Source: Siccirubricoccus deserti
GTDB lineage: Bacteria; Pseudomonadota; Alphaproteobacteria; Acetobacterales; Acetobacteraceae
DNA length: 64,000 bases
Assembly: GCF_014283215.1 (NCBI RefSeq)
Contig: NZ_JACOMF010000004.1
Coordinates: forward strand, 1-64,000
Direction of reading: 5' to 3'
This document shows positions 253 through 12,716 of this stretch, one piece after another. The notes beneath the pieces were generated by a model. The model did no database searches and was not told the DNA's origin. It was given only the letters and a program-made list of their open reading frames with translations. Position 1 is the stretch's first letter, and each line of letters opens with the position of its first letter. A program made the position numbers and the translations under genes.

Positions 253-950
253 TCATAGCACCTGTCCCCGGACGGACACTAAGGACGGAGGACCCTGTCC
301 TGCGGCGTTGGCCAGCTCGATCGGGGCTCTGTGGCCGATCGAGCTGTGTGGCCGGATCTCGTTGTAGTCCACCGCCAAGCTTCGCATTTTCGCCTGGCAT
401 CTTCCAGGCTGAGGAACCAGTTGGCGTTCAGGCACTCGGCCCGGACCTTGCCATTGAAGCTCTCCGCAGAGGCGTTGTCGGTGGGCTTGCCCGGCCGGGA
501 GAAGTCCAGCACCACGCCCCTGGCGCAGGCCCAGAGGTCGAGGTCACGACTGATGAATTCAGGGCCGTTGTCGAGACGAACCTGGCGTGGCAGGCCATAG
601 CAGGCCGTCACCCGCTCAAGCGTGTCGACCACGTCGGCACCGCGGTAGCTCAGCCGCACATCAATGGCGGGCGAGATCCGACTGTGCGCATCGACGATGG
701 TCAGCACGCGGATCCGGGTGCCGTCGAACAACTGGTCCGAGAGGAAGTCCATCGCCCAGATGTCGTTCGGCGCACCCGCCACTAGCCGGTCCTGCCGCAG
801 CTTGGCCGAGACCTTCCGCTTCGGCGTCTTGCTCCGCAGTTGCAGACCCTCCAGCCGCTACAGACGCCAGACCCGCTTGGCGTTCACTGCCCAGCCCTCC
901 CGCCTCAGCAGAACGTGGATCCGTCGCTGGAGCCGGCGCCACAGGATTTG
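253..950 (-). pseudogene. IS3-family orfB transposase (rve integrase core), decayed
   Basis: The minus strand carries an IS3-type orfB integrase core: IHVLLRREGWAVNAKRVWRL, WAMDFLSDQL (first catalytic Asp), LDNGPEF (second Asp) and AESFNGKVRAECL (catalytic Glu region), ending with VDYNEIRPHSSIGHRAP. Two lesions are visible. An in-frame TAG (near 860) replaces the Tyr codon expected after VWRL. A one-base loss near 371-373 moves the reading from CEAWR into another frame, where VDYNEIRPHS continues to a TGA at 253. The N-terminal third (orfA and the start of orfB) is absent, and similarity stops near 940-950. This is an inactive relic. It lies immediately upstream of the RibD-C operon and may have removed that operon's original upstream region. 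Confidence 0.85.
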
Positions 951-1003: not shown

Positions 1004-1786
1004 ATGCAGGGATCTCTCGCCACCGCGGATTGGGAAGCGTTGCTGGCGCGGCGCGATGGCCCGGCTGTTGCGCCGGCCGAGCCACCAGCCGGGCTGTTCG
1101 ACACGCTTCTCAAGCCACCCAGCGCGCCCGACGGCTGCACCGTCGTCGGCCGCCTGGCGCAGACGCTGGACGGGCGCATCGCCACCCTCTCCGGCTCCTC
1201 GCAATGGATCGGCGGACGCGGCGACATCCTGCACACCCATCGGCTGCGGGCGCTCTGTCATGCCGTCGTCGTCGGTGCCGGCACGGTGCGGAGCGACGAC
1301 CCGCGCCTGACCACCCGGCACTGCACTGGGCCGGACCCGGTGCGGGTGGTACTCGACACCGACCGCCGCCTTGGCCCCGGCTACGGCGTGTTTCGCTCCG
1401 GCCCGCCGACCCTGCTGTGCTGCGCCACCGATGCCGAAGGCCCGGATCGGCTCGGCCAGGCTGAGGTGATCCGGCTGCCACGGAACCCGCTGGGTGGCCT
1501 GTCGGTGCCGGCGATCCTGGCCGCCTTGGCGACCCGCGGTCTGACCCGGATCTTCGTCGAGGGCGGCGGCGTCACCGTCAGCCGCTTCCTGGCAGCCGGC
1601 TGCCTCGACCGGCTGCATGTGACGGTCGCGCCGGTGCTGCTGGGCTCCGGCATCCCGGCCTTCACCCTGCCCGCGGCGGCCCACATCGCCGATGGGCTGC
1701 GGTTCGAATGGACAGTCCACATGCTGGACCCGGATGTGCTGTTCGACATCGCCCTCAACCGCACCCGGCCGGACATCTGCCGGTGA
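1004..1786 (+). CDS. RibD C-terminal/dihydrofolate-reductase-fold reductase
   Basis: A protein of about 260 residues made essentially of the RibD_C reductase fold, which in riboflavin synthesis reduces a pyrimidine ribose side chain with NADPH. Visible signatures are QTLDGRIA (about residues 52-59), HAVVVGAGTVRSDDPRLT (about 85-102) and FVEGGGVTVSRF (about 183-194), all typical of the family. There is no N-terminal deaminase domain, so it is not a complete bifunctional RibD. It is the first gene of an overlapping operon; its TGA shares bases with the GTG of the next gene. The start is uncertain: ATG 1004 is used, but ATG 962 is in frame, and the IS relic ends just upstream, so the true N-terminus may be lost. 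Family assignment is firm; the substrate is unknown. Confidence 0.85.
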   Translation: MQGSLATADWEALLARRDGPAVAPAEPPAGLFDTLLKPPSAPDGCTVVGRLAQTLDGRIATLSGSSQWIGGRGDILHTHRLRALCHAVVVGAGTVRSDDPRLTTRHCTGPDPVRVVLDTDRRLGPGYGVFRSGPPTLLCCATDAEGPDRLGQAEVIRLPRNPLGGLSVPAILAALATRGLTRIFVEGGGVTVSRFLAAGCLDRLHVTVAPVLLGSGIPAFTLPAAAHIADGLRFEWTVHMLDPDVLFDIALNRTRPDICR

Positions 1787-2772
1787 CAAAGATGGAAACC
1801 GGGCTGTCGGCAACGGCGCTCTGGTACCTCGCGCCCGGCGTCGCCGCCCTGCGGCAGGAGCCGCTGCCGCCGCCGACCGAGGGTCAGGCCCTGGTGCGCG
1901 CCCACTACGGCGCCATCTCGCGCGGCACCGAGCGGCTGGTCAGCCAGGGCCGGGTGCCGCCCAGTCAATGGCCGGTGATGCGCGCGCCGCTGATGGACGG
2001 CAACTTCCCCTTTCCGGTGAAATACGGCTATGCCGTGGCCGGGGTGGTGGATGCCGGGCCCGCCGCGCTGCTCGGCCGCCGGGTGTTCTGCCTGCATCCG
2101 CACCAGGATCTGTTCCTCGCCCCCGCCGCCATGTGCATCCCGATCCCCGATGCGGTGCCCGACCACCGCGCGGTGCTGGCCGCCAACATGGAAACCGCGG
2201 TCAACCTGCTGTGGGATGCCGCGCCGCTGGCCGGCGAGCGGGCGCTGGTGATCGGCGCCGGCGTGGTCGGGCTGCTGGTGGCGGCGCTGCTGGCCCGTAT
2301 CCCCGGAATCGAGCTCACGGTCTGCGATATCGACCCGGGCCGCGCCGCTTTCGCCGAAGCCCTCGGCGCCCGCTTCTGTCCGCCCGCCGATGCCCCGGGC
2401 GACCGCGACCTCATCATCCACGCCAGCGCCAGCGAGGCTGGGCTGCAGCTCGCCCTTGACCGTGCCGGCTTCGAGGCGCGCATCATCGAGGCGAGCTGGC
2501 ATGGCGACCGCACGGTGGCGCTCCCGCTCGGCGAAGGCTTCCATGCGAGGCGCCTGTCGATCCTCTCCTCCCAGGTCGGCCATGTCGCCGCGGCGGTGCG
2601 CGGCCGTCGCAGCCATGCCGAGCGGCTGGCGCTGGCCCTCACGCTGCTGGCCGATGCGCGGCTGGACGCGCTACTGGCCCCGCCCGTCCGCTTCCTCGCC
2701 CTGCCCGCGGCCTTGCCGAGCCTGCTGGAGGGCAGCGGCGGCCCGCCCTGCCCCACCATCATCTATGCATGA
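1783..2772 (+). CDS. MDR-superfamily (zinc-type alcohol dehydrogenase-like) oxidoreductase
   Basis: About 329 residues. The N-terminal GroES-like half contains YGAISRGTERLVSQGRVPP and FPVKYGYAVAGVV; the Rossmann half has VIGAGVVGLLVAALL near residue 156 and a following CDIDP acidic strand end typical of NAD(P) binding. The structural-zinc Cys cluster of classical alcohol dehydrogenases is not visible. In general layout it resembles BchC-like dehydrogenases. GTG 1783 overlaps the preceding stop (GTGA); ATG 1792 is an alternative. It lies between a RibD-C reductase and a PTPS-like protein and precedes a glycosyltransferase and methyltransferase, which suggests a redox step on a small-molecule intermediate. 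The substrate cannot be deduced. Confidence 0.8.
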   Translation: MTKMETGLSATALWYLAPGVAALRQEPLPPPTEGQALVRAHYGAISRGTERLVSQGRVPPSQWPVMRAPLMDGNFPFPVKYGYAVAGVVDAGPAALLGRRVFCLHPHQDLFLAPAAMCIPIPDAVPDHRAVLAANMETAVNLLWDAAPLAGERALVIGAGVVGLLVAALLARIPGIELTVCDIDPGRAAFAEALGARFCPPADAPGDRDLIIHASASEAGLQLALDRAGFEARIIEASWHGDRTVALPLGEGFHARRLSILSSQVGHVAAAVRGRRSHAERLALALTLLADARLDALLAPPVRFLALPAALPSLLEGSGGPPCPTIIYA

Positions 2773-2784
2773 GAGTATGCCGCG

Positions 2785-3183
2785 ATGTTCAGCCTGACGG
2801 TCTGCGACCACATCATGATCGCCCATAGTTTCCGCGGCGCGGAGTTCGGCCCGGCCCAGCGGCTGCACGGCGCCACCTTCGCCGTGGAGGCGGAGTTCCG
2901 CGCGCCGGCGCTGGATGCGCTGCACCTGCTTGTCGACATCGGCCTGGCCAAGGTCGAGCTGCGCAAGGCGCTCGACACCCTCGACTACCGCAACCTCGAC
3001 AGCGAGGCGCAATTCGCCGGGCTGAACACCACCACCGAATTCCTCTGCCAGCACATCCACAGGCTGCTGGTGGCCGCGCTGCGCGAGGGCCGCCTCGGCG
3101 CCCAAAGCGCCAATGTCACCGCGCTGAAGATCCTGCTGCGGGAAAGCCCGAACGCCTGGGCCGCATTCGAGGGTCCGGTCTGA
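2785..3183 (+). CDS. 6-pyruvoyl-tetrahydropterin synthase/QueD-fold protein, divergent active site
   Basis: 132 residues, the usual length of the T-fold PTPS/QueD family. The family pattern is recognisable: IMIAHSF with His14, RLHGATF with His28, VDIGLAKVELRKAL, then LDYRNLD and NTTTEFLCQHI. Several residues normally required for PTPS/QueD chemistry are replaced. The third zinc His (HGH in the family) is Ala30, the catalytic Cys expected about six residues before His28 is absent, and the Asp-His of the triad reads Asp67-Tyr68. The fold call is strong, but canonical 6-pyruvoyl- or 6-carboxy-tetrahydropterin synthase activity is doubtful. It ends in TGATG, sharing a base with the next gene's start, so translational coupling is likely. 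Confidence 0.85.
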   Translation: MFSLTVCDHIMIAHSFRGAEFGPAQRLHGATFAVEAEFRAPALDALHLLVDIGLAKVELRKALDTLDYRNLDSEAQFAGLNTTTEFLCQHIHRLLVAALREGRLGAQSANVTALKILLRESPNAWAAFEGPV

Positions 3184-4220
3184 TGCACATCGCGTTGCTG
3201 GTCCCCGCCCCCTTCGACACCATCTCCGGCGGCTACGGTTACGACCGCCGGCTGGTCGAGGGGCTGCGCGCGCTGGGCCATCCGGTGCAGGTGGTGGAAC
3301 TCGCCGGCCATCATCCGCTGCCGGATGCCACGGCCGAAGCCGCGGCGCGGGCGGCGCTGGCGGCGGTGCCGGCGCAGGCGCGGCTGGTCATCGACGGGCT
3401 GGGCCTGCCCGCCTTCGCGCCGCTGGCCGATACCCTGGCCGAGCGCCGCGCCGTCGCGCTGATCCACCACCCGACCGCCCTGGAGCATGGCGCGCCCATC
3501 GAGGACCGCGAGGCGCTGCGCGGCATCGAGACGGCACTCTACCCGCGCCTCGCCCGGCTGGTCGCCACCTCGCCGCTGACGGCGCGGCGGCTCGCCCAGG
3601 ATTACGCCGTCGACCCCGCGCGCATCGGCGTGGTCGAGCCCGGCACCGATCCGGCGCCGCGCGCCCGCGGCTCGGGCGGGCCGGGGGTTGCCATTCTCTC
3701 GGTTGGGGCACTGATGCCACGCAAGGGGCATGACGTGCTGATGCAATGCCTTGCGCGGCTGCCCGACATCGACTGGAGGCTGACCATCGCCGGTGCGTCG
3801 CGGGATGCGGTGCATGCGCACGGGCTGCGCGCCCTGGCTGAGGAGCTCGGCATCGCCCAGCGGGTGACCTTCGCCGGCGAGGTCACGCGAGAGGAACTGG
3901 AAGCGCTCTACGACCGGGCCGATGTCTTCGCGTTGGCGACCTGGTGGGAAGGCTATGGCATGGCGGCCGCCGAGGCGTTGGCGCGGGGCCTGCCCATCGC
4001 CATCACCGCCGGCGGCGCCATCGCCGAGATCGTGCCGGTCGAGGCCGGCATCATCTCGCCGCCGGGCGACCTTGTCTCCTTCACCAAGGCGCTGCGCCGG
4101 CTGCTGTTCGACGACGCGATGCGCGCCGAGATGGCCGAGGCCGCCTGGCAGGCCGGCCAGCGCCTGCCGCGCTGGGCGGACCGGGCCACTGCCTTCCTGG
4201 CGGACATCGAACGCGCATGA
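3183..4220 (+). CDS. Glycosyltransferase family 4 (GT-B)
   Basis: 345 residues with the GT-B two-domain layout. The N-terminal part opens with a glycine-rich loop after PFDTISGGYGYDRRL; the C-terminal nucleotide-sugar domain starts near residue 172 with SVGALMPRKGHDVL and contains EGYGMAAAEALARGLP near residue 255, the E-x7-E type signature of GT4 retaining transferases. No membrane segment is seen, so it is probably cytosolic. ATG 3183 overlaps the upstream TGA, and its own TGA overlaps the methyltransferase ATG. In this operon it probably transfers a sugar to the product made by the reductase, dehydrogenase and PTPS-like proteins; donor and acceptor are unknown. Confidence 0.88.
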   Translation: MHIALLVPAPFDTISGGYGYDRRLVEGLRALGHPVQVVELAGHHPLPDATAEAAARAALAAVPAQARLVIDGLGLPAFAPLADTLAERRAVALIHHPTALEHGAPIEDREALRGIETALYPRLARLVATSPLTARRLAQDYAVDPARIGVVEPGTDPAPRARGSGGPGVAILSVGALMPRKGHDVLMQCLARLPDIDWRLTIAGASRDAVHAHGLRALAEELGIAQRVTFAGEVTREELEALYDRADVFALATWWEGYGMAAAEALARGLPIAITAGGAIAEIVPVEAGIISPPGDLVSFTKALRRLLFDDAMRAEMAEAAWQAGQRLPRWADRATAFLADIERA

Positions 4221-5116
4221 CCGAGGCCTTCGACCTCGACTGGCTCGACCTGCGCGAGCCCTTCGACGCCATCGCCCGCTCCGAGGCCCTGGCCGCGCAG
4301 CTACTGGCGCTGCTGCCGGCGCGGCCGCGGTTGATCGACCTCGGCTCCGGCACCGGCAGCCTGTTCCGCTGGCTGGCGCCGCGGATCGGCCGGGCCCAGG
4401 CATGGACCCTGGTGGATCATGACCGGGAGATGGCGGAGGCAGCCTTCGACACCATCGCCGACCGAGCCGGGCAGGTCGGGCTGAAGGTCACCTTCCCCAA
4501 CCGCAAGACCCTGCTGGTGCACGCCCCCGGCGGCGCCTGGCGGGTGGAGGCGCTGGCCGCCGACTTGGCCGACGCACCCGGTATCCTGCCGCTTGCCAAT
4601 GCCGATGCGGTGCTCAGCTCGGCGCTCTGCGACCTGGTCTCCCGCCCCTGGTTGGAGCGCATGGCGGCGGCGCTGCGCGTGCCCTTCTACGCTGCGCTCT
4701 GCGTCGATGGGCGGGAGCGCTTCCTGCCGCCACATCCACTCGATGCGCGGGTCCTGGCGGGTTTCCGCCGCGACCAGGGCCGCGACAAGGGCTTCGGCGG
4801 CTCGGCGCTTGGGCCGCTGGCGCCGGCGGCGATCGCCGCCACCTTCGGCGCCCGCGGCTTCCAGGTGACGAGCGCGGCGAGTGATTGGGTCGTGCGGCAG
4901 CGCGGCGCCTCTCCCCTGCCCGGGTTGCGGCAGCACAATTACCGCTTCGTCAGCGAGCTGGCGCTGGGCCATGCCGCCGCAGCCCGCCGCCATGACCACC
5001 GCGGCCTGCGGTCGATCGGCGCCTGGGCCGACGCGCGGCTGAAGCAGATCTCCGGCCGGCGGCTGGCGGTACGTATCGGCCACCGCGACCTGCTGGCGGC
5101 ACCGCCGCGGCGCTGA
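4217..5116 (+). CDS. Class I SAM-dependent methyltransferase
   Basis: 299 residues with a Rossmann-type SAM site: motif I is LIDLGSGTGSLFRWLAPRI at about residues 38-56, followed by the acidic LVDHD after the second strand. The C-terminal half (GFRRDQGRDKGFGGSALGP, RFVSELALGH) has no motif I can name. ATG 4217 overlaps the glycosyltransferase stop (ATGA), making it the last clearly coupled gene of the five-gene operon. It presumably methylates the operon's product or an intermediate. The methyltransferase call is firm from motif I; the acceptor is unknown. Confidence 0.82.
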   Translation: MTEAFDLDWLDLREPFDAIARSEALAAQLLALLPARPRLIDLGSGTGSLFRWLAPRIGRAQAWTLVDHDREMAEAAFDTIADRAGQVGLKVTFPNRKTLLVHAPGGAWRVEALAADLADAPGILPLANADAVLSSALCDLVSRPWLERMAAALRVPFYAALCVDGRERFLPPHPLDARVLAGFRRDQGRDKGFGGSALGPLAPAAIAATFGARGFQVTSAASDWVVRQRGASPLPGLRQHNYRFVSELALGHAAAARRHDHRGLRSIGAWADARLKQISGRRLAVRIGHRDLLAAPPRR

Positions 5117-6927: not shown

Positions 6928-8187
6928 ATGATCATGCCGCTGCTCGGCTGCATCGCCGATGATTTCACCGGCGCCACGGATCTGGCGAACACCCTGGTCA
7001 AGGGCGGCATGACCGCGGTGCAGGTGATTGGCGTTCCCCGAGGTCCGCTGCCCGAGGCCGATGCGGTGATCGTCGCGCTGAAATCGCGCACCGCGCCGGT
7101 GGCCGAGGCAGTAGCCGAAAGCCTCGCCGCCTGCGACGCGCTGCTGGCCGCCGGGGCAAGGCAGATCTTCTTCAAATACTGCTCCACCTTCGACAGCACC
7201 GATGCCGGCAACATCGGGCCAGTGGCCGATGCGCTGGTGCAGCGGCTGGGCTGTGGCTTCGCCCTGGCCAACCCCGCCTTCCCGACCAATGGAAGGACGG
7301 TGTTCCAGGGGCATCTCTTCGTCGGCAGCGCGCTGCTGAACGAGAGCGGAATGGAGAACCACCCCCTCACCCCGATGCGGGACGCCAATCTGGTGCGGGT
7401 GCTGTCCCGGCAGACCGACGGTACGGTGGGCCTGGTGCCCTTCGCCGTGGTCGAGCAGGGCGCCGCGGCAATCCGCCGGGCGATGACCGGGCTGAAGGAA
7501 AGCGGCCGGCGCTACGCCATCGTCGATGCACTGACCGATGAGCATCTGCTGGCGATCGGCGAGGCGGCGGCGCCGCATGCGCTGATCACCGGCGGCAGCG
7601 GCGTGGCGATGGGGCTGCCGGCGAATTTCCGCGCCGCCGGGCTGCTGCCGGAGCGCGGCGCGGCGGCCAGCGCCCTGCCGCCGATGCAGGGCCCCGCAGC
7701 GGTCCTGGCCGGCTCCTGCTCCCGCGCCACCCTGGGGCAGATCGGCTACGCCCGCGACCATGCGCATACGCTGGAGCTGGATGTGCTGGCCAGGCCGGAT
7801 GCCGGCGCGCTGCTGGCGCAGGCGCTGGACTGGGCCGCGGACAAGCTCGGCGACCATCCGGTGGTGATCGCCGCCAGCGCACCGCCGGAGAAGGTGGCGG
7901 CGCTGCAGGCGAAGCTCGGGCGCGATGCCGCCGGCGCGCTGGTGGAGGAAACCCTGGCCAGCATCGCCGAAGCGCTGGTGGCGCGGGGCGTGCGGCGGCT
8001 TGTGGTGGCGGGCGGCGAGACATCCGGCGCCGTCGTCTCCCGCCTCGGCGTCGCCGCGCTGCGCATCGGGCCGGAGATCGACCCCGGCGTGCCCTGGACC
8101 TATGCCGAGCCCACCGGGCTGCACCTGGCGCTCAAGAGCGGCAATTTCGGCGCCCGCGACTTCTTCCTGAAGGCTTTCGGGGCATGA
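6928..8187 (+). CDS. otnK: 3-oxo-tetronate kinase (four-carbon acid sugar kinase, DUF1537)
   Basis: 419 residues, full length for the OtnK family. The N-terminal signature CIADDFTGATDLANTLVKGG (from residue 8) and the FFKYCSTFDSTDAGNIGPVADAL stretch (the KYCSTFDSTDAGNIGP core) are diagnostic. The C-terminal nucleotide-binding half contains VVAGGETSGAVV. The family phosphorylates 3-oxo-tetronates (oxidised threonate/erythronate) with ATP in the cytosol. ATG 6928 follows a GGAGGG site; ATG 6934 is possible. The gene overlaps otnC, its usual partner. The matching tetronate dehydrogenase and isomerase are not in the neighbourhood. Confidence 0.92.
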   Translation: MIMPLLGCIADDFTGATDLANTLVKGGMTAVQVIGVPRGPLPEADAVIVALKSRTAPVAEAVAESLAACDALLAAGARQIFFKYCSTFDSTDAGNIGPVADALVQRLGCGFALANPAFPTNGRTVFQGHLFVGSALLNESGMENHPLTPMRDANLVRVLSRQTDGTVGLVPFAVVEQGAAAIRRAMTGLKESGRRYAIVDALTDEHLLAIGEAAAPHALITGGSGVAMGLPANFRAAGLLPERGAAASALPPMQGPAAVLAGSCSRATLGQIGYARDHAHTLELDVLARPDAGALLAQALDWAADKLGDHPVVIAASAPPEKVAALQAKLGRDAAGALVEETLASIAEALVARGVRRLVVAGGETSGAVVSRLGVAALRIGPEIDPGVPWTYAEPTGLHLALKSGNFGARDFFLKAFGA

Positions 8188-8816
8188 GCGAGAGCGAGCT
8201 GCGCGAGGCGATCGCGGCGCATGGCCGGCTGCTGTTCGGCCGCGGCTATTCGGTGGGCTCGGCCGGCAACATCAGCGTGCGGCTGCCGGATGGTTTCCTG
8301 ATGACCCCGACGAACTCCTGCCTCGGCCGGCTGGATCCGGCGCGGCTCAGCAAGCTCGACCGCGCCTGGCAGCATGTCTCCGGCGACCCGCCCTCGAAGG
8401 AGGTGTTCATGCACCGCGCGGTGCTCGAAACCCGCGCGGAAGCGCAGGCGGTGGTGCATCTCCACTCGACCCATGCGACCGCCATCGCCTGCCTGGCGGC
8501 GCCCGGCGAGACCGCGCCGATCCCGCCGCTGACGCCCTATTTCGTCATGCGCATCGGCCGCAGCCTGCCGGTGATCCCCTATTACCGCCCTGGCGACCCG
8601 GCGATGGAGCCGGCCATCGCCGCGGCGGCGCGGGAGGCACGGGCCATGCTGCTGGCCAATCACGGGCCGGTGGTCAGTGGCAGGTCGCTCGATGACGCGG
8701 TCTATGCGGCGGAGGAGCTGGAGGAGGCCGCGAAGCTCGCGCTGCTGCTACGCGGCCAGGCGCCGCGAGCGCTGACCGCCGGGCAGGTCGAGGCGCTGCT
8801 GCAGGCCTTCGGCTAG
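8184..8816 (+). CDS. otnC: 3-oxo-tetronate 4-phosphate decarboxylase (class II aldolase/adducin)
   Basis: 210 residues of the class II aldolase/adducin fold. Zinc-binding and active-site motifs are visible: SAGNISVRL near residue 30, VVHLHSTHA near residues 90-98 (two His ligands) and LANHGPVV near residue 158 (third His). ATG 8184 overlaps the otnK stop (ATGA). The pair converts the kinase product 3-oxo-tetronate 4-phosphate into dihydroxyacetone phosphate and CO2, feeding glycolysis. Family members also include fuculose-phosphate aldolase, but coupling to OtnK supports OtnC. Confidence 0.9.
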   Translation: MSESELREAIAAHGRLLFGRGYSVGSAGNISVRLPDGFLMTPTNSCLGRLDPARLSKLDRAWQHVSGDPPSKEVFMHRAVLETRAEAQAVVHLHSTHATAIACLAAPGETAPIPPLTPYFVMRIGRSLPVIPYYRPGDPAMEPAIAAAAREARAMLLANHGPVVSGRSLDDAVYAAEELEEAAKLALLLRGQAPRALTAGQVEALLQAFG

Positions 8817-8929
8817 AGCAGGTTCAGGCTGGCCGTACCGGTCCGCCTGAAGAAACCGCTCCGGCGCGCATCCCGCGGCCGACCACGCCGCAGCAAGCCT
8901 CCCATCCTCCGCCAATGAAGGATCATCGC

Positions 8930-9529
8930 ATGGACACCCCACCCGACCGCGAGGCGCCCGCCGCGCATCCGATCGAAGCGCTGTTGCGCCGGCGCTGGAG
9001 CCCGCGCAGCTTCATCGCCGCGCCGGTGGCCCCGGCGGCGCTGGACAGCGTGCTGGAGGCGGCGCGCTGGGCCGCGAGCTGCAACAACGCCTAACCCTGG
9101 CACTATATCGTGGCGCGGCGCGATGCCGATGCCGCGGCCTTCGCCGCGCTGCTCGGCACGCTGACGCCGAACAACCAGGGCTGGGCGCAGCATGCCGGGG
9201 TGCTGATGCTGGCGGTCGCCCACAGCAGCTTTCCCGCCAATGGCAATCCCAACCGGCACGCGCTGTACGACACCGGCGCGGCGAGTGCCCAGATGGCGCT
9301 GCAGGCCGCGGCGCTCGGGCTCCAGATTCACCAGATGGCGGGCTTCGATCCGCAGAAGGCGCGCGACGCCTTCGCCATCCCGGAGGGCTTCGAGCCTGTC
9401 GCCGCCATCGCCCTCGGCCATGTCGGCCCGGCGGAGGCGCTGCCGGACGCCCTGGCGGCGCGCGAGACGGCGCCGCGGCAGCGCCGGCCGATCGGCGAAT
9501 TCGCCTTCTTCGGCAGCTGGCAGGGGTGA
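8930..9529 (+). pseudogene. Nitroreductase-family gene with in-frame TAA
   Basis: From ATG 8930 the reading gives a nitroreductase start (IEALLRRRWSPRSFIAAPV, LDSVLEAARWAASCNNA), then hits TAA at 9092-9094. The same frame continues without other lesions (PWHYIVARRDADAAAF, GAASAQMALQAAALGLQIHQ, FGSWQG) to the TGA at 9527. The family reads NNAQPWHYIV here, so a single C to T change of a CAA Gln codon explains the stop. The second half alone cannot fold as an FMN nitroreductase because the N-terminal SRRS/PRSF flavin-phosphate residues are separated. It was either inactivated recently or is read through. Confidence 0.8.
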
Positions 9530-10143
9530 GCGCGTTGGATGGAGAGATGCTCGACCGCATCGCCATCCGCGCCCTGGTGGAGAATTGGGCGGTATGGCGC
9601 GACGCCGGCGACTGGGACCGCTTCGCCACCTGCTGGCATGCCGACGGCATCATGATGGCCACCTGGTGCCAGGCGCCTTGGGCGGAGTTCATCGCCGCCA
9701 GCAAGGCCGGCTGGGCGAAGGGCGTCTCCATCCTGCATTTCCTCGGCGGCCACAGTGCCGATGTGGCGGGGCATCGCGCCATCGGCCAGACCAAGATGAC
9801 GATCAGCCAGCGCGCCATGGTGCATGACGTGGAAGTGGACGCCGTCTGCACCGGGCGGTTCTACGACTTCCTGGAAAGGCGTGAGGGACGCTGGGGCATG
9901 GTGCTGCGCCAGCCGATCTACGAGAAGGACCGCATGGACCCGGTCGATCCCGCGGCGCGGCTGGAACTGGATCCGGCACTGCTGAAGCGCTTTCCCGCCG
10001 GCTACCGCCACCTCGCCTATCTGCAGACACAGATCGGCTATGCGGTGAAGACCGACATGCCAGGGCTGCAGGGGCCGGAAGTGGAGGCGCTCTACGCCGG
10101 GGCGCGCGCTGGCTGGCGGGCGGGCCGCATAGCTGAGGCTTGA
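9526..10143 (+). CDS. SnoaL/NTF2-like domain protein
   Basis: 205 residues. The N-terminal part has the SnoaL-like opening (IAIRALVENWAVWRDAGDWD, FATCWHADGIMMATWCQ) and the cone-fold pattern continues through GHRAIGQTKMTISQRA and GRFYDFLERREGRWGMVLRQ. Such folds serve as small hydrolases, cyclases or dehydratases, or as binding domains; none can be assigned. GTG 9526 overlaps the stop of the broken nitroreductase (GTGA), which shows the two once formed one transcription unit; ATG 9547 is an alternative start. The C-terminal tail includes LQTQIGYAVKTDMPGLQG. Confidence 0.75.
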   Translation: MSALDGEMLDRIAIRALVENWAVWRDAGDWDRFATCWHADGIMMATWCQAPWAEFIAASKAGWAKGVSILHFLGGHSADVAGHRAIGQTKMTISQRAMVHDVEVDAVCTGRFYDFLERREGRWGMVLRQPIYEKDRMDPVDPAARLELDPALLKRFPAGYRHLAYLQTQIGYAVKTDMPGLQGPEVEALYAGARAGWRAGRIAEA

Positions 10144-10205
10144 GCGGATCGCGGGCGGAGCCTGAATGCCCGAGGCGCGCATTCTTCTGACCAGCAACAG
10201 GCGAG

Positions 10206-10241
10206 GGCGGACCGGTGTTCCTGCATGAACGCCGGTCCGCC
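10206..10241 (+). terminator. Long hairpin after the SnoaL-like gene
   Basis: GGCGGACCGG and CCGGTCCGCC pair perfectly; inside them GTTC and GAAC extend the stem around a CTGCAT loop. It lies 60 bases after the stop at 10143. No T-run follows on the plus strand. Confidence 0.55.
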
Positions 10242-10253
10242 CCCGTCGCGAAA

Positions 10254-10283
10254 AGGGCGCCGCCCCTTGCGGAGCGGCGCCCT
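10254..10283 (-). terminator. Rho-independent terminator of the H1-like gene
   Basis: AGGGCGCCGC and GCGGCGCCCT form a perfect 10-bp stem. On the minus strand the hairpin is followed by TTTTCGCG, a short U-tract. It lies 22 bases beyond the stop of the H1-like gene. Confidence 0.7.
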
Positions 10284-10305
10284 CTCGCCGGGATCGGCGA
10301 CGGGT

Positions 10306-10890
10306 TCAGGTAGCGGGGGTCTCGCCCTCGGCCGGCGGCGGCGGTGCGACCGCAGCTTCGGCAGCGGCGGCCTTCTTCGCCGCGCGCGTCGCGGCGGCCT
10401 TCTTCGCCGCCTCAGAGCGCGACGGGTTGGAGGCCTTCACCGCAGCGGCCTTCTTCGGCGCGGCGGTGCGGGCGGCGGTCCGCTTCGGGGCGGCCTTCTT
10501 CGGCGCGGCGGCAACCCGGCGGGCTGCCGGCTTCCTGGCGACGGCCTTCTTCGGCGCCGCCGCCTTCTTCGCGGCGGGCTTCTTCGCGGCGACGGCCTTC
10601 TTCGGCGCCGCCTTCTTCGCTACCGCCTTCTTCGGCGCGGCAGCCCGGGAGGTGGTGCGCTTCGGCGCTGCCTTCTTCGGAGCGGCCTTCGTCGCGGTCT
10701 TCCGCGCCGCCGGCTTCTTGGCGGCGGCGGCCTTCTTCGGCGCCGCCTTCTTCGCTGCCGGCTTGCGGGCCGCCGGCTTCTTGGCGGCGACCCGGCCGCG
10801 TGCCGACGTGGGCTTCTTCGCGGTGCGACGCGTGGTGGACACAGCCATCGCCTGGGCGCGGGCTGCCGGTGTCTCGGGGGTATCGGTCAC
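10306..10890 (-). CDS. Histone H1-like/AlgP-like Lys-Ala-Pro repeat protein
   Basis: About 194 residues, nearly all built from Ala, Lys, Pro and Arg in variants of KKAAPKKA and KKPAARK, the composition of the C-terminal tail of eukaryotic H1 and of bacterial HctB/AlgP-type nucleoid proteins. A short N-terminal segment (VTDTPETPAARAQAM) and an acidic, proline-rich end (APPPPAEGETPAT) frame the basic repeats. GTG at 10890 is chosen because AAGGAG lies eight bases upstream; earlier in-frame ATGs lack such a site. It probably binds DNA through charge and compacts or modulates chromatin. The repeats are low-complexity, so homology inferences are weak. A terminator follows directly. Confidence 0.8.
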   Translation of the reverse strand: MTDTPETPAARAQAMAVSTTRRTAKKPTSARGRVAAKKPAARKPAAKKAAPKKAAAAKKPAARKTATKAAPKKAAPKRTTSRAAAPKKAVAKKAAPKKAVAAKKPAAKKAAAPKKAVARKPAARRVAAAPKKAAPKRTAARTAAPKKAAAVKASNPSRSEAAKKAAATRAAKKAAAAEAAVAPPPPAEGETPAT

Positions 10891-11500
10891 AATCAGGATC
10901 TCCTTGCGCGTTCCAGTGGGGGACAGGCGGGAACGCATGCCGGCTTCATGTAGAAGCCGATGCGCCATGCCCGGATAGCAGCAGAGGCGGTCGTGCGATG
11001 GTGGCAGCGCGCGGATCCCGTGGCACGCCTTGCCGTGTCGGTCGCTGTCCTGGCCGTACGGTCAGGAAGCGGCAACGGACGTTCAGCCGCGGCGTGCCGC
11101 GTCGCGTATCCCTCAGCCTCGCTTCCGGCGAGGAGCATGCTGTCCGCAGGCTCCGCCGCTGCGGAATGTGCGGCGAGTGGATCTGCCACCATCCCGTCCT
11201 GTCCGCGGTCCATGGACCGTCCTTCCCTGCTGCGGCACGCCGTTGACGTTTCTCGATCCGCCGGGCAGTGAGTTTGGTGCTGGCGAATCGTGTGCATCGT
11301 CGTGCGCGCGAATCACGCTATCTTCACACGCATCCTTCGTGTCAACAGAAACCGCAATTCGCTTCGCGCTTTTTCCTGCGCGATGCTGCGCATGGTGCAC
11401 GACACCGCCCTGCGCGGCGCGCGCATGGCAATGCCGACACGCTGCATCATCACATGGATCACCCGCGCGTCGCCCGGCCGCGCCGAAGCCACAAACGCGA
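10891..11500. other. 610-base intergenic region without a recognised gene
   Basis: It lies between the start of the H1-like gene and the prpC terminator, and both flanking genes read on the minus strand. Open frames exist on both strands (for example minus 10893-11297), but their compositions look like noise and no family motif is seen. The stretch 11270-11400 is somewhat less GC-rich than its surroundings. It must hold the promoter of the H1-like gene; no clear box was identified. Confidence 0.5.
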
Positions 11501-11526
11501 ACGGCCGCCGGTGTCCCGGCGGCCGT
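11501..11526 (-). terminator. Terminator after prpC
   Basis: ACGGCCGCCGG and CCGGCGGCCGT form a perfect 11-bp stem around a four-base loop, 50 bases beyond the prpC stop. On the minus strand it is followed by TCGCGTTTG, a poor U-tract. Confidence 0.65.
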
Positions 11527-11576
11527 CGTTCCTCATGGCAGGGCGACGTCGTGGACGCCGCCGCCATGCGCCTTGC

Positions 11577-12716
11577 TTACCGCGCCGACATCGGCGGGAC
11601 GGGCCGCTGCTCCAGCCCGGTGTACCAGGACAGCGGCCGGATCAGCCGGTTGTCCGCCGCCTGCTCCAACACGTGGGAAGCCCAGCCGGTGATGCGCGCG
11701 GCGACGAAGAGCGGGGTGAAGAGCGGGATCTCGAAGCCCATCAGGTAGTAGGCGGGACCTGCCGGGAAATCGAGGTTCGGGTGGATGTTCTTCTCCCGCA
11801 GCATCTTCGCGGCAAGCACCCGGCTGGTCTCCATCCAGCGACGGTCGCCCACCACCTCCGCCATCTTCTCGGCGTATTTGGTCATCGTCGGGACGCGGCT
11901 GTCGCCCGATTTGTAGACCCGGTGGCCGAAGCCCATGACCAGCGCCTTGTGGTCGAAGCGGGTGGAAAGCCATTCCTCCGCCTGCTCCGGCCCGCCGACC
12001 TCCTTCAGCATGTGCATCACGGCTTCGTTGGCGCCGCCATGCAGCGGGCCCTTCAACGAGGCGATGCCGGCGGTGATCGCCCCATGCATCTCGGCGCCCG
12101 AGGAGGTCACCAGCCGTGCCGTATAGGTGGAGGCGTTGAAGGTGTGCTCGGCGTAGAGGATCATCGAGACGTCGAAGGCCTTCAGCACCTCCGGCTGCGG
12201 CACCTTCCCCTGGATCAGGTGGAAGACGTTCTCGGCGAAGCTGTGGGACGGGTCGGGCCGCAGCGGCTCCAGCCCCTTGGAGGCGCGGTAGGCGGCGGCG
12301 ATGGCGGTCGGGATCTTGGCGAACAGCCGCTTGGCCTTGCGCCGCTGCGCCGCATCGCTGACATCGGCGGTCTCCGGATCCTCCATCCCCATGAAGGAGA
12401 CGGCGGTGCGGATCGCATCCATCGGGTGCCCGTCCTTCGGGAATTCCCGGATGACGCGGTGCAGCGCCGGGCTGATCTCGCGCTCCGCCGCCGTCTCGGC
12501 CTTGAAGGCGGCCAGCTGCGCGGCATTGGGCAGCTCGCCTTCCCACAGCAGGTAAGCCACTTCCTCGAAGCTGCAATTCTCGGCCAGATCCTGCACCGCA
12601 TAGCCGCGGTAGGTCAGGCTGTTGGTTTCCGGCATCACCTTGGAGATGGCGGAGACATCGGCGTAGACGCCGACAAGGCCCTTGTAGATCGTGGGCTTCC
12701 CGGTGGACTCGCTCAT
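11577..12716 (-). CDS. prpC: 2-methylcitrate synthase / citrate synthase family
   Basis: 379 residues, the short form of the citrate synthase fold used by PrpC and bifunctional 2-methylcitrate/citrate synthases. Active-site regions are present: PLHGGANEAVMHML, MGFGHRVYKSGDSR and the Asp-containing NLDFPAGPAYYLMG, followed by FTPLFVAARITGWASHVLEQ. The ATG at 12716 is preceded by GAGGAG. It condenses propionyl-CoA (or acetyl-CoA) with oxaloacetate in the cytosol. prpD lies 367 bases upstream on the same strand, which favours the methylcitrate role, but citrate synthase activity as the main or extra function cannot be excluded because the families overlap. Confidence 0.88.
   Translation of the reverse strand: MSESTGKPTIYKGLVGVYADVSAISKVMPETNSLTYRGYAVQDLAENCSFEEVAYLLWEGELPNAAQLAAFKAETAAEREISPALHRVIREFPKDGHPMDAIRTAVSFMGMEDPETADVSDAAQRRKAKRLFAKIPTAIAAAYRASKGLEPLRPDPSHSFAENVFHLIQGKVPQPEVLKAFDVSMILYAEHTFNASTYTARLVTSSGAEMHGAITAGIASLKGPLHGGANEAVMHMLKEVGGPEQAEEWLSTRFDHKALVMGFGHRVYKSGDSRVPTMTKYAEKMAEVVGDRRWMETSRVLAAKMLREKNIHPNLDFPAGPAYYLMGFEIPLFTPLFVAARITGWASHVLEQAADNRLIRPLSWYTGLEQRPVPPMSAR

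Follow-up and report, generated by a model that had tools for sequence, protein, structure and literature searches.

A conserved five-gene operon of Siccirubricoccus deserti and the GTP-derived, pterin-like pathway that it may encode

What a chain of five open reading frames (ORFs) near the start of contig NZ_JACOMF010000004.1 of Siccirubricoccus deserti might make, and whether its members act together at all, are the questions addressed here. The window analyzed comprises positions 1 to 64,000 of that contig (64,000 nucleotides, nt), and its ORF list places the five genes head-to-tail, all on the plus strand, between 1004 and 5116:

1004-1786, plus strand, RibD_C-type reductase (Pfam RibD_C, 4.2e-37)
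1783-2772, plus strand, BchC-like medium-chain dehydrogenase (MDR), with a GTG start at 1783 and a 4-nt overlap with the RibD_C ORF
2785-3183, plus strand, PTPS-fold protein of the SCO6650 family (Pfam PTPS, 2.1e-20), after a 12-nt gap from the MDR
3183-4220, plus strand, GT4 glycosyltransferase (Pfam Glycos_transf_1, 8.8e-29), with a 1-nt overlap with the PTPS-fold ORF
4217-5116, plus strand, class I S-adenosylmethionine (SAM)-dependent methyltransferase (Pfam Methyltransf_25, 1.6e-5, below the cut-off), with a 4-nt overlap with GT4

A first-pass annotation had read these genes as one closely packed chain of RibD_C, MDR, PTPS-fold, GT4 and methyltransferase genes, and this chain was confirmed, with three overlaps and a single gap of the sizes listed above. 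The RibD_C, PTPS and Glycos_transf_1 matches all exceed the Pfam cut-offs, while those of the MDR and the methyltransferase are weak (best 0.0015 and 1.6e-5, respectively, both below their cut-offs). The reading favored here, to which we give slightly better than even chances, is that the operon represents the Acetobacteraceae form of a widespread GTP-derived pathway, which would draw on 2,5-diamino-6-ribosylamino-4(3H)-pyrimidinone 5'-phosphate (DARPP), a ring-opened product of GTP, and lead to a glycosylated, methylated pterin-like compound.

The conservation of the gene set was examined in several collections of genomes. First, the PTPS-like gene was found in 19 of 60 genomes around the window, namely in 18 of 36 from the same family (its own genome included) and in 1 of 24 from outside it. 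Secondly, profile searches were applied to 77 PTPS-like loci of named genomes, which as labelled are mostly from Acetobacteraceae or Rhodospirillales, with two from Actinomycetota (L097 and L098; L numbers are our locus labels). Within 5 kb of the PTPS-like gene, an MDR was found at 72 of these loci, RibD_C at 67 (65 on the same strand), GT4 at 61 (60 on the same strand) and the methyltransferase at 44. Many of the contigs are short; where the sequence extends over 3.5 kb in each direction, as it does at 52 loci, the corresponding counts within 5 kb were 50, 48, 42 and 32. The constant core is RibD_C-MDR-PTPS, and GT4 and the methyltransferase are less constant. Third, a search of 289 alphaproteobacterial genomes for the MDR gave matches in 36, with that of S. 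deserti among them. At 29 further alphaproteobacterial MDR loci, with six more matches left out, PTPS lies beside the MDR in 27, and within flanks of 1.5 kb GT4 was found in 26 and RibD_C in 10. The MDR of Tessaracoccus, searched for in 296 actinobacterial genomes, gave matches in 37, counting that of Tessaracoccus itself. Seven of the further actinobacterial loci were left out; the other 29 all carry PTPS and GT4 in their 1.5-kb flanks, and RibD_C is present at 22, of which 19 have it on the strand of the MDR. In a divergent actinobacterial branch (MDR identity to the query 34-40%), RibD_C-MDR-PTPS-GT4 is once more the usual arrangement, and at one such locus (L206) a methyltransferase overlaps GT4 at the end of this series. 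Lastly, haloarchaeal plasmids carry MDR-PTPS-GT4-methyltransferase (L114, L115 and L116) or MDR-PTPS-methyltransferase (L105).

Joint conservation had been set beforehand as the test on which the operon reading could fail. It held, since the gene order is conserved across Acetobacteraceae and MDR and PTPS adjoin each other in 27 of 29 and 29 of 29 loci, and the results support the view that the five genes act together and are not five strays. That five unrelated genes are neighbors by chance has in its favor that each domain is common and that GT4 and the methyltransferase are absent from some loci. However, the order is shared by Alphaproteobacteria and Actinomycetota, four of the genes recur together in haloarchaea, and the genome has a separate RibD on another contig (C179), beside another gene with a GCH II (GTP cyclohydrolase II) domain. 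Chance is hardly credible as an explanation and was rejected on the conservation counts. No description of this gene set was found in the open-licence literature searched, in agreement with the statement of the first-pass annotation that it recognized no described pathway with this exact set.

Two minor observations concern individual loci. In Siccirubricoccus sp. G192 (L038) the MDR (8026-8951) and GT4 (9417-10426) each occupy two frames, which are either frameshifts or sequencing errors. A PHP-domain gene and a gene with an AlaRS-like editing domain lie near two of the divergent actinobacterial clusters (L204 at 3202-4661 and L209 at 10518-12004), which may be plain synteny.

In the PTPS-fold protein the Pfam PTPS (T-fold) domain is present at 73.3 bits against a cut-off of 22.4, and the solved structure of SCO6650 from Streptomyces coelicolor (PDB 3d7j) was matched over residues 1-129 (E 1.5e-38). 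The residues were compared in an alignment of 163 rows, in which some loci are counted twice. Glu85 and Glu120 are present in 163 of 163 rows, and Glu120 is presumably the Glu that anchors the pterin. The catalytic Cys position, four residues before the HGH motif, is Ala in the window protein and is Ala in 154, Glu in 7 and a gap in 2 of the 163 rows. The third zinc His (position 30) is also lost, with HGA in the window protein in place of HGH; this position is Ala in 135 rows and His in 28, and the latter are divergent actinobacterial and haloarchaeal proteins. In addition, the catalytic Asp-His pair is lost, with DY in the window protein and DH in 2g64. With the catalytic Cys and His lost, and a zinc ligand as well, neither the PTPS nor the QueD reaction should be assumed and the name QueD is unwarranted. 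The divergent members keep the triad without the Cys, and the zinc ligand was thus probably lost later, in the branch of the window protein. It was also observed that HxH is kept in the PTPS-like proteins of L175-L196 and of L105, L114 and L116, and that Glu replaces Cys in the haloarchaeal proteins and in three actinobacterial ones (L177, L191 and L196).

These residues also bear on the possibility that the gene is the QueD of the genome and that the operon serves queuosine or another deazapurine. It is the sole PTPS-domain gene in its genome, and relatives are annotated (RefSeq-type) as 6-carboxytetrahydropterin synthase with a queuosine GO term, both of which would fit such a role. The QueD model, however, gives 36.5 bits against a cut-off of 89.25, and the protein has HGA for HGH and DY for DH relative to 2g64 and has lost the Cys. 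A QueD, queuosine or deazapurine pathway was rejected on residues and score, contradicted as it is by the sequence, and we regard it as very improbable. The synthase name and the queuosine term are probably wrong for members of the SCO6650-type family. The first-pass annotation had called the gene product a PTPS/QueD-fold protein and had offered a deazapurine as an alternative product. The fold stood and the QueD identity did not; the deazapurine alternative also fell away, with no GCH I (GTP cyclohydrolase I), QueC or QueE in the annotated neighborhoods, although no search for these genes was made at unannotated loci.

The closest known system is the SCO6650 family itself, with which the window protein shares the AQRLHGAT motif and the 129 aligned residues. 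SCO6650 reportedly has neither zinc nor PTPS activity. The SCO6650-type clusters of Streptomyces also hold an MDR, a GT4 and a methyltransferase, but they add a CDP-alcohol phosphotransferase, a flippase-like protein, a creatininase and GCH II, all four of which are absent from the window operon. The PTPS-like family is already on record through 3d7j, a solved structure deposited as uncharacterized. A second, different context for the family is provided by stand-alone copies on Streptomyces plasmids (L106, L107 and L109), where a lone PTPS-like gene without an MDR has cupin, MBL-fold, MEKHLA or YbaB genes as neighbors.

The RibD_C-type reductase was considered in the same manner. Only the RibD_C domain matches in this protein (residues 47-221 of 260), without the N-terminal deaminase domain of bacterial RibD. 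R82, D98, L102, R105 and E186 are kept in 73 of 73 aligned RibD_C rows and S66 in 67 of 73, and we take these positions, by comparison with RibD structures, to be the residues of the substrate site. The closest solved relative is a diaminopyrimidine reductase (6p8c, 2.1e-24). These features suggest that the protein probably reduces a ribosylamino-pyrimidine 5'-phosphate. It shares the domain and the substrate-site residues with the reductase domain of RibD and with the archaeal-type diaminopyrimidine reductase, but it has no deaminase domain, lies outside a riboflavin operon and falls below the NCBIfam cut-offs for both. A riboflavin operon was rejected for this locus, as the RibD-type and GCH II-domain genes of the genome sit together on contig C179.

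A related possibility is that the product is flavin-like, lumazine-like or another ribitylamino-pyrimidine and no pterin at all, with the PTPS-fold protein only binding the pyrimidine ring. RibD_C and GCH II are riboflavin-type enzymes, and T-fold proteins bind several heterocycles. There is, however, no RibH- or RibE-type gene in the annotated neighborhoods, and the kept Glu fits pterins too. We consider this possibility doubtful, and a pterin-like product a plausible one on the present sequences.

The source of the precursor was approached through the genes that accompany the relatives of the operon. Among 38 clusters, which were hand-picked and are not a random sample, GCH II occurs in 20, GTP cyclohydrolase III (GCH III) in 1, a CDP-alcohol phosphotransferase in 21, a creatininase in 8 and a cytochrome b561 in 7; examples of the partner domains were confirmed with Pfam. 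A flippase-like LPG_synthase_TM protein occurs in 15 of the 38, each time together with a CDP-alcohol phosphotransferase. GCH II and RibD_C are fused into one protein in the Actinomycetota loci L097 and L098. The first-pass annotation had proposed to look for a constant partner such as GTP cyclohydrolase, and this was borne out in part: type II or archaeal type III, in place of type I, accompanies relatives, while in Acetobacteraceae the operon, that of the window included, contains no GTP cyclohydrolase. For the CDP-alcohol enzyme of L102, solved relatives are faint (best 0.015). In rhizobial clusters and in Thiodictyon (L102, L112, L128-L131 and L099), RibD_C has the cytochrome b561-type gene as its neighbor, a hint at redox chemistry at the membrane.

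The 20 GCH II proteins of these clusters were aligned; seven have Met at the position of E. coli Tyr105, and the other 13 have Tyr. The seven of the Met type belong to exactly those seven of the 20 clusters that have a creatininase gene, whereas the 13 clusters of the Tyr type have no creatininase in the stretch. The Met form (SCO6655) is one that we take to stop at the formylated product. The match between Met and creatininase, together with this presumed biochemistry, points to a ring-opened diaminopyrimidine and not the GCH I product as the precursor. PMC9478397 describes a creatininase-family formamidase that acts on the formylated GTP cyclohydrolase product. The creatininase-fold gene beside Met-type GCH II in 7 of the 20 clusters is in this respect like the formamidases BrbF and ArfB, which follow FAPy-type GTP cyclohydrolases, but only some relatives have it, and the window operon has no such neighbor. 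Most simply, DARPP would be a shared precursor that each lineage makes with its own set of enzymes.

The chief competing explanation is that the pathway starts from the GCH I product. The PTPS-like protein would then handle a dihydroneopterin derivative, and RibD_C and the MDR would reduce the pterin, with a glycosylated tetrahydropterin as the result, of the kind that cyanobacteria and green sulfur bacteria make. RibD_C is DHFR-like in fold, the PTPS fold with its conserved Glu is present, and a glycosyltransferase is alongside. Known pteridine glycoside pathways are taken to begin with GCH I followed by a true PTPS, in which they differ from the pathway proposed for the window operon. GCH I is listed in none of the annotated neighborhoods, where GCH II or GCH III recurs instead, and the PTPS catalytic Cys is absent in 161 of 161 rows with a residue at that position. 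PMC3546692 describes pteridine glycosides together with PgtA, a pteridine glycosyltransferase, which lends this explanation some support. The likeness of the operon to these pathways (cyanopterin, limipterin and solfapterin; PgtA) is in the expected product class, a pterin with a sugar (PMC3546692). On balance, a start from GCH I is unlikely, though less so than a flavin- or lumazine-like product, and a precursor from GCH II is the more likely of the two.

The remaining three proteins were assigned to fold classes. The AlphaFold2 models are confident, with mean pLDDT values of 87.6 (MDR) and 95.2 (methyltransferase), and Foldseek gave a fold class and no substrate for either. It places the MDR among medium-chain dehydrogenases (RspB and the L-idonate, xylitol and sorbitol dehydrogenases) and the methyltransferase among class I methyltransferases with modest TM-scores. 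The best NCBIfam match of the MDR is BchC (TIGR01202), an MDR of bacteriochlorophyll synthesis, yet the score of 45.5 bits is far below the equivalog cut-off of 291.25 and the genomic partners differ; BchC was rejected as its identity. The nearest solved relatives of the GT4 are Tll1590 and MshA-type enzymes, a kinship that may be a weak hint at a sugar-phosphate or polyol-phosphate acceptor.

The chemistry proposed for the DARPP-based pathway, product included, is what we infer from which genes occur together, in what order and with which partners, and from the active-site residues that are kept or lost. GCH II encoded elsewhere in the genome would make DARPP, and the RibD_C protein would reduce its ribosyl to a ribityl group without deamination. 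The genes for the MDR and the PTPS-fold protein adjoin each other almost without exception, and the two proteins, acting as a pair, would convert the reduced compound to a pterin-like product. This product would then receive a sugar from the GT4 and a methyl group from the methyltransferase. Elsewhere among the lineages the CDP-alcohol phosphotransferase, often with the flippase-like protein, probably links the product to a phospho-alcohol or lipid. A more specific version, which is speculative and as doubtful as the flavin-like product, is a pterin route independent of GCH I. Here RibD_C would reduce the GCH II product to the ribitylamino-pyrimidine, the MDR would oxidize the 2'-hydroxyl of the latter and the Cys-less PTPS-fold protein would close the ring with the 5-amino group. 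Glycosylation and methylation would follow, and in the CDP-alcohol lineages (with the flippase-like protein and sometimes cytochrome b561) the product would be anchored on a phospho-alcohol of the membrane, which would make it a new redox-active lipid.

Several observations weigh against the DARPP-based pathway as proposed. First, the window operon contains no GTP cyclohydrolase. Secondly, the Met and creatininase match stems from related actinobacteria (two Streptomyces and five others) and may be a single event. Third, the gene set is not complete everywhere. Among the 52 roomy loci, 10 have no GT4 and 20 no methyltransferase within 5 kb; at L151 and L153, both alphaproteobacterial, the MDR lacks PTPS, GT4 and RibD_C within 1.5 kb; PTPS has no adjacent GT4 in L105 or L110, and in L108 the GT4 is about 4 kb away; and L104 has GCH III and an MDR with no detectable PTPS. 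In the stretches retrieved for the haloarchaeal loci L105, L114, L115 and L116 and for the streptomycete-type loci L100 and L198-L202, no RibD_C was found, and it is thus perhaps not part of every version. Lastly, there is no invariant Cys among 28 MDR sequences (zinc-ligand positions were not mapped on the model), so zinc alcohol dehydrogenase chemistry is disfavored and the label "zinc-binding" is doubtful.

The rest of the genome and the surroundings of the operon were also examined. The GCH II-domain genes of the genome are on contigs C112 (Tyr type), C179 (near the RibD gene) and C210 (weak), and its three creatininase-family genes are on contigs other than that of the window. The genome has three genes of the CDP-alcohol phosphotransferase family; two of them gave only matches of 29-48 residues to the cluster-type proteins, and one gave none. 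Base 1 of the window is the start of the contig, and insertion sequence (IS)-type DNA lies 5' of the operon, with one feature directly adjacent that is outside the pathway:

279-782, minus strand, IS transposase ORF (Pfam rve, 2.6e-19)

A second transposase-like ORF lies at 1-240 on the minus strand, and the IS-type DNA spans 1-960 of the window. The start region of the operon was matched in 17 of 18 close relatives searched, and in the 8 of the 18 that reach furthest the homology starts at 964-983, that is, 21-40 nt 5' of the first ATG. A scan for promoters and terminators detected none. The operon may thereby have lost its native promoter to the IS DNA that adjoins it at the start of the contig. 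Downstream, ORFs at 6928-8816 resemble, by their letters alone, a four-carbon acid sugar kinase and a class II aldolase, and a cupin gene (Pfam) precedes them.

If the reading given here is true, a GTP-derived compound that was not found described is made by a gene set of many Alphaproteobacteria, Actinomycetota and haloarchaea. The clusters offer a concrete candidate for its precursor, and a possible reason for the Met-type GCH II paralogue in the actinobacterial clusters. In addition, the gene set would reveal a role of the PTPS fold after the loss of its catalytic residues.

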